From contig CAITUY010000147.1 of NCBI GenBank assembly GCA_903895695.1, forward strand, positions 1 through 64,000: 64,000 bases of DNA. The letters run 5' to 3'. Origin of the DNA: an uncultured bacterium (lineage in GTDB: Bacteria > Verrucomicrobiota > Kiritimatiellia > CAIKKV01 > CAITUY01). This document shows positions 23,321 to 26,416 of this stretch, piece by piece. Both the position numbers and the translations under genes were made by a program. Positions within the stretch are counted from its first letter, which is position 1. Each line of letters begins with the position of its first letter. Below the pieces are notes generated by a model that ran no database searches, was not told the DNA's origin, and saw only the letters and a program-made list of their open reading frames with translations.

Positions 23321-23878
23321 CTACGGCGACGAAGACAGTTCCAATTCGTGCAATGTCGGCCCCACGAGCTGGCCAATGTGGTTGCCGGCGACGAACACCA
23401 CGATTCCAAAACCGACCAGCGCTACCACCAGAGCCGCGAAAGCCCAGAAGTGCTGCGATTCCAGGCTCTCAAGCGAGCGGGCAAAAGCCACGAGCGCAAG
23501 CACCGCCGCAATGACAATGACAGCGTCAACGCTCGCCCGCTGCCAATAGTCGCCACCCAAATGCAGCCACATGCCAAATTCGTCGAAGGTCAGCCCCATG
23601 GCCATGCCATAGGCCAACGCGACGCCTCCGGCCGCGCGGCCGATCGGCCGACAGAACACGCTGTACCCGCCGACCGCGGCGAGCAGGAAGATGCCGTAGT
23701 TCAAATGGTGGACGTGGGTCCCCTGCAGAAAGAAATAAAGGTTTGGAATCCGCCGCGACATGATCAAGAAGACCACGGCCCGTGCCGCCAGGAACGTCAT
23801 GACGAAGCTGAATAAGGCCAACCGGGCCAGCCTGTGCACAGTGGCTTGACTCAACTCATGTTCAGCCGGCGGTTGCAT
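23321..23878 (-). CDS. multi-pass membrane protein, unknown family
   Basis: 185 aa with about five hydrophobic segments. Conserved-looking features are GTHVHHLNYGIFL and a later LTFDEFGMWLHLGGDYWQRAS. The buried His/Asp/Glu residues hint at an enzyme or transporter, but I do not recognise the family. ATG 23878 is preferred; upstream in-frame residues overlap the Tim44-like gene's 3' end. It lies 7 nt from that gene and 44 nt before the phosphoesterase, suggesting one operon. Confidence 0.75.
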   Translation of the reverse strand: MQPPAEHELSQATVHRLARLALFSFVMTFLAARAVVFLIMSRRIPNLYFFLQGTHVHHLNYGIFLLAAVGGYSVFCRPIGRAAGGVALAYGMAMGLTFDEFGMWLHLGGDYWQRASVDAVIVIAAVLALVAFARSLESLESQHFWAFAALVVALVGFGIVVFVAGNHIGQLVGPTLHELELSSSP

Positions 23879-23885
23879 GGCGATA

Positions 23886-26108
23886 TCAGTTAGCCCGAGT
23901 CTGTTTGTAATACCATTGCAGTTGGTCTGCGGAAGTGCCTTCATCGACGTTTTCGGCGGATAACGCCGCCTCGCCCCGCGCCTCGGGAAGGACCTCTTTG
24001 AGCTTCCACATGTTGTCCAGTCTTCCAAAGGTCCAGTACTCCACCCACGGGGTAACGTCTTCGTCCTGGCTGATCAACAGACTGTTCCGGCGGACAATCC
24101 TCTGGGCATGGGCGCTGATTCGGACGGTGAACTCGTCCTGCGTGTTGTCGGAATAGTTACGCACCAGGACCAACTCCGCCTTGCGCACGCAAAGGTTGCG
24201 GTACTCCAGCCGCGTTCCCTGGGCGCCGAGGCGTACCAGTTCCCCTTGCAGGCTGGTGGCCACGGCGGGGAACAACTCCGCCATCGGTATGGCGGCCGGG
24301 TCGCCGCCTTCGCGCGCGAGCATGACGTGCAAGAACACCTGGCGGGCGCGCTCCAGCATCGCCTCCTGATTCCAAAGCTTGTCGGTCTGAACGAGAAAGT
24401 TCAACAGCCGCTCGACGCGCGTAGTCTTGGCCAATGTATCCTTTTCCAACCACGGCCCCGCCGGGCCCTGCTTGCCCGCCGCGTCGGCATAGACCTGGTT
24501 CAATCCCACATTGGTAAACTGCTCGAAGAAATTCTCCTGCTTCAGCACGTCGGACTCGCGGGTCTGCTCGATCTCGCGCAGCAGCCAGGCGCCATCCTGC
24601 CGATGGAACGTCCAGAACTCCTGGAAACGCGCGGGCTGTTTGTCGCCGCGCACAAACTCCTGCGTGCGGTCGTCGAGATAGTAGTCGCGCGCGCAGGCCG
24701 AAATGAGCGCCGTGAATTCGCGATCGTTCTCCTTTTGCGTGTACCGGACGTTCACGATATCCACGTGCTCGACACGCAGATCCGCAAGCACATTGATCTC
24801 ATGGTTACGAATCAACCCGCCGATCTGGTGGCAGTGCTCCGCATAGAGGTCGGGCATGAGCAACGTCTTCATGGGGTCGTACTGCCGCGCCTGCCAGCAA
24901 TCCTGCAGTTTCTTGAACGTGGACAAAGCCAGTTCCTCCAGCGCGCCGGCTGCCATGGTCTGGTCCACGCGGGAAAGAAATTCAAGCAGCTTCCGTGTCT
25001 TGACGGCCTTGCGTTCGATGTCGGCCCGGCTGTAGGAGAAGTCCAGATCCTCGCCGTCACCGGCTTTCTGCCTGGCATTGAGAATAGTGCTCGCCAGCAC
25101 GATCACGCCCATGATGACGAGCACAATGATCAGGTCTTTTGGATCGTTCGATCCTCCCCCGGAGGAATGGAATCCGCCATAAGAGCCGCCGTGAAAGCCG
25201 CCGCCGCCGAAACCACCGCCACCCTTGTTGTGCACCGCCACCTTGTTGGCGAAATAGGTGTTCGGATGGTCGGTCTGCAAGTTGTAGACCCGAGTCGGAG
25301 CGTGGACGGTGTGAATGCTGGCAATACGCTGTTCTTGAAGGCGGTCGCCGGCGACCGCGAAGACCGCGTCCCCGACTTTCAATGCTTCCAGAGTCTTGAA
25401 TACTCCGTTACCCACGTAGAATGGGTGTTCTCGGGTCACACGCAGCGTCGCCGTTTCCGTGCTCACGACGAAGTATTCATCCACGTCGTAGACGATCACC
25501 TGCCGCACGGTGGTGTGGACCGTCTCCCCGGAGAGTGTGAATGCAAGCAACTCATCGCCGGGCTGAATCGCGCTGATGGGTGCTTCCGTGCTGTCCGCGC
25601 GCAGGATCGGCGTGTCGGGCAGGAAGCAGCCCTTGTTGTGCACCACCACGCCGTTCGCGAGATAGGTGCCGCCCGGAGCCACCATGAGGTTGAAGGCGGG
25701 GCGCAACGCTTTGACGTGGGCCACGGTGTCGATGCGAACAGCGCTAAGCCCGTTCGCGTCGCCCACCAGGACCGTGTCACCCGGCTGCAGGCTTGCTGCC
25801 GTGCGGAACACACCGGGCCCGATCTGCACTGGATGCTCCACGGTGGCCCGCAGCGTTCTCCCGGCCGCGACAATCTCGACATATTCGTCAGGACTGACCC
25901 GCATCACCGCCTGAACCGTAGCCGATTCGCAGTGCCCCTTCTCGACCGCCCAGACAGCATCGCCACACGCCAGTTGCTCGATGGGAACCAGACCGACCGG
26001 CGTGGCGACCCGCGTGCCCTCCTCCAGGCAGCCGCCGCCACCGCGCCCCCACGCCGCGCAGAGGGGAAGCAGCGTGAACGCGAAGATGGCTGTGGTCCGA
26101 AGTCTCAT
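23886..26108 (-). CDS. Tim44-like membrane protein with two tandem Hint (intein-like) domains
   Basis: 740 aa, in order: signal peptide (1-22, ending CAAWG), glycine stretch GRGGGG, Hint domain 1 (27-158), a Lys-Gly spacer, Hint domain 2 (161-294), glycine-rich KGGGGFGGGG region (295-320), one membrane helix (325-343), and two tandem Tim44-like domains (about 385-530 and 565-715). Each Hint domain begins with Cys (CLEEGT, CFLPDT), has a TxxH motif (TVEH, TREH) and ends in HN. The residue after HN is Lys both times, not Cys/Ser/Thr. It therefore looks like a bacterial intein-like pair able to cleave or possibly splice, not a standard intein. An upstream TTG at 26150 is an alternative start. 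Confidence 0.88.
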   Translation of the reverse strand: MRLRTTAIFAFTLLPLCAAWGRGGGGCLEEGTRVATPVGLVPIEQLACGDAVWAVEKGHCESATVQAVMRVSPDEYVEIVAAGRTLRATVEHPVQIGPGVFRTAASLQPGDTVLVGDANGLSAVRIDTVAHVKALRPAFNLMVAPGGTYLANGVVVHNKGCFLPDTPILRADSTEAPISAIQPGDELLAFTLSGETVHTTVRQVIVYDVDEYFVVSTETATLRVTREHPFYVGNGVFKTLEALKVGDAVFAVAGDRLQEQRIASIHTVHAPTRVYNLQTDHPNTYFANKVAVHNKGGGGFGGGGFHGGSYGGFHSSGGGSNDPKDLIIVLVIMGVIVLASTILNARQKAGDGEDLDFSYSRADIERKAVKTRKLLEFLSRVDQTMAAGALEELALSTFKKLQDCWQARQYDPMKTLLMPDLYAEHCHQIGGLIRNHEINVLADLRVEHVDIVNVRYTQKENDREFTALISACARDYYLDDRTQEFVRGDKQPARFQEFWTFHRQDGAWLLREIEQTRESDVLKQENFFEQFTNVGLNQVYADAAGKQGPAGPWLEKDTLAKTTRVERLLNFLVQTDKLWNQEAMLERARQVFLHVMLAREGGDPAAIPMAELFPAVATSLQGELVRLGAQGTRLEYRNLCVRKAELVLVRNYSDNTQDEFTVRISAHAQRIVRRNSLLISQDEDVTPWVEYWTFGRLDNMWKLKEVLPEARGEAALSAENVDEGTSADQLQWYYKQTRAN

Positions 26109-26146: not shown

Positions 26147-26416
26147 TCAATGCAGTCCGGCAAGGATTCCGCCAAGCACGGCCGCCGCCACCACTATGCT
26201 GATTCCGATGATGCTGGCGCCGACGACCCGGCCGAAGTATTGCGCCACCGCGACATTGCCGCGGGCGATTTCCTTGTCCTCATCGATGTTGGGCGTCATG
26301 CGATCCACCAACCGCGGAATGAATAGCGACGCCAGCAGAACCAACCCGATCCCAATGAGGCCCCCGAGCACCGAGAACGCCACCGCCCAACCCATATTCT
26401 GTGCAACTTCGCTCAT
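26147..26416 (-). CDS. DUF350-like membrane protein
   Basis: 89 aa with two to three hydrophobic segments. The pattern EIARGNVAVAQYFGRVVGASI resembles DUF350/YjfL membrane proteins, which occur in pairs of a helix-helix unit; function unknown. ATG 26416 has GAGGGGGG 4 nt upstream. It is the first gene of a minus-strand run and precedes the Tim44-like gene. The two may act together in the membrane, which is inferred only from position. Confidence 0.75.
   Translation of the reverse strand: MSEVAQNMGWAVAFSVLGGLIGIGLVLLASLFIPRLVDRMTPNIDEDKEIARGNVAVAQYFGRVVGASIIGISIVVAAAVLGGILAGLH

Follow-up and report, generated by a model that had tools for sequence, protein, structure and literature searches.

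The locus described here raises the question of what two tandem Hint domains do between the signal peptide and the membrane helix of a bacterial Tim44-like protein. The role of bacterial intein-like (BIL) domains is, to our knowledge, not settled, in part because those studied sit in variable, poorly conserved proteins. The gene resides in a stretch of 64,000 nucleotides (the window; positions 1 to 64,000 of contig CAITUY010000147.1, assembly GCA_903895695.1) from a metagenome-assembled genome (MAG) of 6.3 Mb that is 94.6% complete and belongs to the Kiritimatiellia. An original prediction, made from the letters alone, had placed two BIL-like Hint domains in the glycine-rich linker of a Tim44-like protein, and the gene, its coordinates and strand and the residues of both domains are as first described when judged by open reading frame, Pfam and NCBIfam (Table 1). 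The array, every catalytic residue and a near-invariant lysine behind each domain (position +1) recur in distantly related bacteria, and for this reason we infer that self-cleavage, perhaps followed by religation, is a probable step in the maturation of the host protein.

Architecture and predicted fold

Table 1. Features of the Hint-Tim44 locus in window coordinates (aa, amino acid positions in the encoded protein)
Feature	Position	Strand	Extent and motifs	Basis and remarks
Hint-Hint-Tim44 protein gene	23886..26108	(-)	740 aa; ATG 26106-26108; stop 23886-23888	orthologues exist
Signal peptide	26046..26108	(-)	aa 1-21; ..LLPLCAAWG, then RGGGG	sequence; small residue ahead of R[AG]GGG in almost every relative
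N-flank RGGGG	26031..26045	(-)	aa 22-26	RGGGG ahead of Cys1 in 30/30 profile-aligned first domains
Hint1	25635..26030	(-)	aa 27-158, 132 aa; C27 ... TVEH(P) ... H157-N158	position-1 type
KG junction	25629..25634	(-)	aa 159-160	+1 Lys of Hint1 (K159-G160) and N-flank of Hint2
Hint2	25227..25628	(-)	aa 161-294, 134 aa; C161 ... TREH(P) ... H293-N294	position-2 type
KGGGG Gly-rich linker	25143..25226	(-)	aa 295-322; KGGGGFGGGG..	+1 Lys of Hint2 (K295) at 25224-25226; uninterrupted in Hint-less homologues
Membrane helix	25059..25142	(-)	aa ~323-350	AlphaFold helix, hydropathy, charge
Tim44-like domain 1	24564..24974	(-)	aa 379-515	Pfam PF04280; Foldseek to human Tim44 2cw9
Tim44-like domain 2	24000..24440	(-)	aa ~557-703	NCBIfam NF033779 stretch below cut-off; second Pfam stretch; model
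DUF350 small membrane protein gene	26147..26416	(-)		directly upstream, same strand; Pfam PF03994 5e-7

The best Pfam Hint model for the protein is PT-HINT (PF07591; 2.1e-18, two stretches); the models Intein_splicing, Hint and Hint_2 also exceed their cut-offs and the NCBIfam models intein_Nterm and intein_Cterm pass their curated ones. Pfam Tim44 (PF04280) likewise covers two stretches (4.9e-24; 85.6 bits versus a gathering score of 29.6), while the model for the TimA adaptor subfamily (NF033779) yields 40 bits versus a curated cut-off of 80, which leaves the protein outside that subfamily. The residue in front of R[AG]GGG is Ala in 23 relatives, Gly in eight, Ser in three and Pro in two, and once the signal peptide is off, RGGGG would make up the entire predicted N-extein.

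The original prediction had proposed structural modelling of both Hint domains as a check. An AlphaFold model of the Hint1-Hint2 pair has a mean pLDDT of 85.6, and in Foldseek it ranks BIL2 of the Tetrahymena protein BUBL1 (6y75, E 2.4e-10), the BIL of Clostridium thermocellum (2lwy) and DnaB inteins at the top. The better matches to solved BIL and intein structures reach target TM-scores of about 0.8-0.88; 4o1r was also matched. The crystallized BUBL BIL2 construct carries N143A, and its PDB alignment to the window Hint ends at the His. For the C-terminal part, the model (pLDDT 81.8) finds its matches in Tim44 of human and yeast (2cw9 and 3qk9) and in the related mitoribosomal subunit.

A family of Hint-Tim44 proteins in several phyla

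A scan of GTDB contigs identified 22 relatives and profile searches of four phyla supplied more, giving a total of 39 distinct proteins with the same architecture, each with one to four Hint domains (four in members L096 and L097) that are always found at the Gly-rich linker. Recurrence of the architecture in so many distinct proteins excludes chance. All members with identified records stem from MAGs, and the taxon names given here are record labels: Verrucomicrobia, Lentisphaerae, Phycisphaerales/Planctomycetota, Terriglobia/Acidobacteria, Auribacterota, Elusimicrobia and Deltaproteobacteria/Syntrophaceae/Desulfarculales. A search of the open-access literature retrieved no paper that joins a Hint domain with Tim44 or describes the family. 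In one member (L042, genome G154), Hint1 contains an in-frame insertion around residues 200-260 (..SETRNPKAKTNLKLQNPSKAQN..FDIRISS..) that resembles a translated dispersed repeat; at this place about 20 residues are absent from the same-genus relatives L002 and L005, in which all catalytic residues are nevertheless present.

The gene was present in only one of 232 sampled genomes of Acidobacteria and in two of 17 from the window's own order, and its distribution is thus patchy and probably reflects horizontal movement of the whole gene. We reject carriage by a virus or plasmid, as the plasmids, phages and viral contigs searched gave no full-length match to the Hint-Tim44 protein. Other Hint proteins of this kind were not found in the window's genome at E <= 0.01. 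The closest orthologues (68-73%), which also share the downstream gene, are encoded in MAGs of Limisphaerales/Verrucomicrobia subdivision 3, whereas the best match within the window's own order reaches 53%. A recent transfer or a mis-binned contig may be the source of this pattern, and our conclusions are unaffected either way. The phylum sample of the window's MAG includes genomes with Lentisphaerae record labels.

Catalytic residues and the +1 lysine

Residues were counted in a profile alignment built without any requirement for catalytic residues; absent cells represent contig ends or split alignments. In the family Hints, Cys1 (84/84), the Gly at -1 (83/83), the block-B His (87/87) and the penultimate His together with the terminal Asn (87/87) are invariant, the block-B Thr is present in 86 of 87, and block F features Asn in 84 of 87 domains. 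The catalytic residues form the most conserved columns of a domain whose mean pairwise identity within the family is only 36%. Behind the domain, position +2 is Gly in all 87 cases and position +1 is Lys in 86 and Met in one, and never Cys, Ser or Thr, which bears out the BIL-like ending that had been read from the window. Since position +1 is not part of the domain and belongs to an otherwise free Gly/Ser segment, its near-invariance calls for an explanation. Non-family Hints that end in HN and were met in the same searches have Ser, Cys or Thr at +1 in 42 of 51 cases and Lys in two; the terminal HN is absent in 16 further Hint domains outside the family. The sole change from Lys to Met is found in L131 (genome G729, C11), where the gene also contains an in-frame TAG, which might reflect gene decay or a fault in assembly. 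Two proteins outside the Tim44 family, L204 and L213, likewise feature Hint domains with HN-Lys; one stops right after HNK and the other continues with KEKP.

Values of dN/dS per Hint range from 0.05 to 0.28 and overlap with those for the Tim44 part. Judged by these sequence comparisons, the catalytic residues and the +1 Lys-Gly pair are retained under purifying selection.

Origin of the Hint array

The same phylum samples were searched with the Tim44 part alone in order to find orthologues without a Hint domain. The close orthologues number seven in the window's phylum, six in the Desulfarculales phylum sample (where a seventh, in genome G392, is truncated by the contig end and was not counted) and eight in the Elusimicrobial sample. 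Each of them contains at least one Hint, so that none of 21 assessable orthologues is Hint-less. The next homologues, at 20-33% identity, do not contain a Hint and consist of a signal peptide, R-A-G-G-G..., a Gly/Ser-rich linker, a helix and Tim44 (examples are L007-L009, L161-L168, L176-L180, L189-L198 and L207-L212). A comparison with such uninterrupted proteins had been proposed as a further check, and it agrees with the idea of a natural glycine linker: the Hint-less proteins run through RAGGGG... straight after the signal peptide, and in the family the Hints come directly after the R[AG]GGG with which this linker opens. A Hint domain at any other position or a mutated catalytic Cys or His was looked for across the family and not found. 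In the group L006-L009, the Hint-less Tim44-like proteins with a complete N-terminus begin with RAGGG after the signal peptide, and by eye several have CxxC pairs resembling zinc ribbons and a TerB-like-looking C-terminal region.

In the Hint tree, the domains fall into three clades according to position (first, second and third/fourth; supports 0.969, 0.983 and 0.879), each of which extends across several phyla. Proteins L003 and L026 contain a second-type Hint only, and Elusimicrobial proteins with one Hint have the third type alone. In L031, from a Lentisphaerae MAG, the third Hint falls into the position-2 clade and is thus a recent Hint2 duplication replacing the usual third type. Distances between Hints correlate with those between the Tim44 parts (Spearman rho 0.89 for position 1 and 0.67 for position 2). 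Position clades, correlated distances and dN/dS values together argue for an ancestral tandem duplication that has been maintained and has co-evolved with the host protein, and against repeated invasion. Hence, the part of the original prediction that saw the domains as inserted twice gives way to one ancient array with position-specific clades, and the latter rule out two independent insertions.

Fold and N- and C-terminal splicing motifs, together with the patchy occurrence of the whole gene across phyla, might point at mobile inteins that invaded the Gly linker. A domain of 132-134 residues has no room for a homing endonuclease, the +1 position lacks Cys, Ser and Thr, empty sites do not occur in the assessable orthologues, and clades by position as well as co-divergence with Tim44 are at odds with such invasion. 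We therefore reject a mobile intein; the idea is largely refuted and we grant it next to no probability.

Neighboring genes and membrane topology

Wherever the contig of a relative extends far enough (22 cases), the next gene upstream is a DUF350 gene, and the window copy scores 30.3 bits versus the Pfam gathering score of 26 for PF03994. In seven Deltaproteobacterial loci (L017-L019, L025 and L027-L029), a cluster of genes matching LemA (the match was tested for two members) directly precedes DUF350, and LemA, DUF350 and Tim44 appear to constitute an envelope module there. DUF350 (YjfL) proteins have been described elsewhere from envelope-stress operons and from operons that encode polyamine-related enzymes (PMC11237479). 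The window also contains, downstream of the Hint-Tim44 gene, a membrane-protein-like gene without Pfam match (23321-23878, (-)) that is shared with the nearest relatives L012-L014.

In a charge count, Lys and Arg amount to 2.8 after the helix versus 1.3 before it. This higher positive charge, combined with a cleaved signal peptide, would place the Hint domains outside the inner membrane and Tim44 inside, on the cytosolic face. As the helix separates the two, Hint cutting is predicted to trim only the outer N-terminal end. Liberation of the Tim44 part, which the original prediction had envisaged outside the cell, is ruled out on this topology. Control of assembly by the Hints is possible. In L017 the membrane helix is seemingly shortened or deleted, while Hints and Tim44 are intact.

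Relationship to known Hint proteins

Type A BILs carry His-Asn as their last two residues, have no nucleophile at +1 and cut themselves, and splicing is possible when the amine freed by Asn cyclization attacks the N-terminal thioester (PMC4031507). By this published definition, the HN end and the missing +1 nucleophile suggest that the family works like a type A BIL; the Hint/intein fold, Cys1, TxxH, His-Asn and absence of Cys, Ser and Thr at +1 all agree with the class, with activity itself being predicted. Shared with the type A BIL of C. thermocellum (2lwy) are the fold (Foldseek TMt 0.86), Cys1, TxxH, the terminal His-Asn, the lack of a nucleophilic +1 side chain, Asn in block F (VYN) and a secreted host protein. 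Type A BILs have been described from hypervariable regions of non-conserved bacterial proteins (PMC7765530), whereas the 39 members considered here keep one conserved protein and one site, and we thus regard their Hints as a variant of type A. The variant differs further in its conserved operon, ordered arrays of one to four domains at the fixed site, near-invariant +1 Lys-Gly and Gly at -1. Type B BILs show no similarity to intein block G (PMC4031507) and are ruled out, since HN is present in block G of all copies and the intein_Cterm model passes.

The best fold match is BUBL1 BIL2 (6y75, 6tmm), which is reported, in a CASP14 summary, to splice by an isopeptide bond between the upstream C-terminus and a Lys epsilon-amine (PMC8616854). 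BUBL BILs are ciliate domains and reside between ubiquitin-like domains, whereas the present family is bacterial, has its Lys directly at +1 and carries only a signal peptide and RGGGG upstream, i.e. no ubiquitin-like domain. Class 1 inteins share fold, block A, B and G motifs and the matches to curated N- and C-terminal intein models, but have Cys, Ser or Thr at +1, where the family has Lys; the family also lacks an endonuclease, and no empty allele was found among 21 assessable orthologues. Polymorphic toxins share the PT-HINT model, yet the family lacks a toxin domain, and its host membrane protein and operon stay the same throughout. Bacterial Tim44-like (PF04280) membrane proteins resemble the family in domain order, in R[AG]GGG right after the signal peptide and in the Tim44 fold; the commoner homologues are Hint-less, while the subfamily with two Tim44-like domains always contains a Hint in our sample.

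Proposed reaction and its alternatives

On the reading that we favor, export and removal of the signal peptide would leave an N-terminus of the form RGGGG-[Hint]n-KGGGG-helix-Tim44. Each Hint would then form a Gly-thioester on its own Cys1 and cleave its C-terminus by Asn cyclization, with cuts at Gly|Cys and Asn|Lys. The +1 Lys would accept the Gly acyl of RGGGG (or of the preceding KG/KGGG), either by its alpha-amine, as proposed for type A BILs (PMC4031507), or by its epsilon-amine, as reported for Tetrahymena BUBL BIL2 (PMC8616854). The Hint would leave and the Gly-rich ectodomain would close, keeping one Lys per Hint removed. We infer that the reactions occur and that ligation prevails over hydrolysis, and either amine may serve. 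Cutting of at least one Hint junction is, in our judgement, likely. That the Hints are active type-A-BIL-like domains which excise themselves and rejoin the Gly linker, and are needed for maturation of the host protein, has an even chance of being right. Every copy keeps both half-reactions, which points to coupled chemistry and, together with R[AG]GGG in Hint-less relatives, leads us to favor joining over shedding; as those relatives also keep this motif after the signal peptide, rejoining would restore an ordinary linker. Several points speak against excision and rejoining. The rejoined N-flank comprises only about five residues, such that a benefit of ligation is not obvious, and the keeping of one to four copies is not accounted for. 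In addition, the prevailing block F residue is Asn and not the Asp that is typical of class 1 inteins. A more special version, in which the epsilon-amine of the +1 Lys replaces Cys, Ser or Thr, attacks the Gly thioester and, after Asn cyclization has freed the Hint, leaves one epsilon-isopeptide per Hint, so that an envelope protein acquires a branched Gly ectodomain studded with Lys, appears unlikely to us.

The main rival is cleavage only. N-thioester hydrolysis and/or Asn cyclization would shed the Hints along with RGGGG, the mature protein would begin at the linker Lys, and the Hints would cap the outer Gly-rich segment until they are removed, either always or under certain conditions. In the type A BILs studied, cleaved products outweigh spliced ones (PMC4031507, PMC7664689), which is why we do not rate joining higher and consider cleavage a serious, albeit less probable, contender; the consistent lack of Cys, Ser and Thr at +1 and the low cost of losing a stub of about five residues fit it as well. 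A cap would need a single junction only, yet residues of both the N- and the C-side are kept in every copy, the RGGGG stub is invariant and persists in Hint-less relatives, and pure shedding leaves the near-invariant +1 Lys unexplained. Acyl transfer in trans, from the Gly thioester to an amine elsewhere (a Lys of a neighboring subunit, a polyamine or the cell wall), would turn the array into a maker of covalent cross-links in the way BUBL BIL2 dispenses ubiquitin-like domains. The fold match to that BIL, which is reported to conjugate its upstream domain to Lys residues of substrates (PMC8616854), and the polyamine-related operons of other DUF350 proteins (PMC11237479) are compatible with this; unless the signal peptide is retained, however, the cargo would be no longer than RGGGG, a ubiquitin-like domain is missing and the Lys is fixed in cis beside the Hint, and we deem such transfer improbable. 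Still less credence is given to Hints that have lost catalysis and serve the periplasmic segment in a structural or protein-binding role: nothing positive speaks for it, even if Hint domains without terminal HN exist outside the family, and it conflicts with the catalytic residues being the most conserved columns of the domain.

Implications

Beyond what the original prediction had recognized, the family is characterized by the near-invariant +1 Lys-Gly signature, variable copy number, the DUF350/LemA operon and its spread over several phyla. One host, one site, one operon, retained catalytic residues and a near-invariant candidate acceptor Lys make the role of a BIL directly testable. If the Lys is indeed the acceptor, these proteins would parallel, in bacteria, the ATP-independent isopeptide chemistry that has been reported for a ciliate BIL (PMC8616854), and would possibly provide a new tool for protein ligation. 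At the same time, the family may offer a first way into the DUF350-LemA-Tim44-like envelope module.
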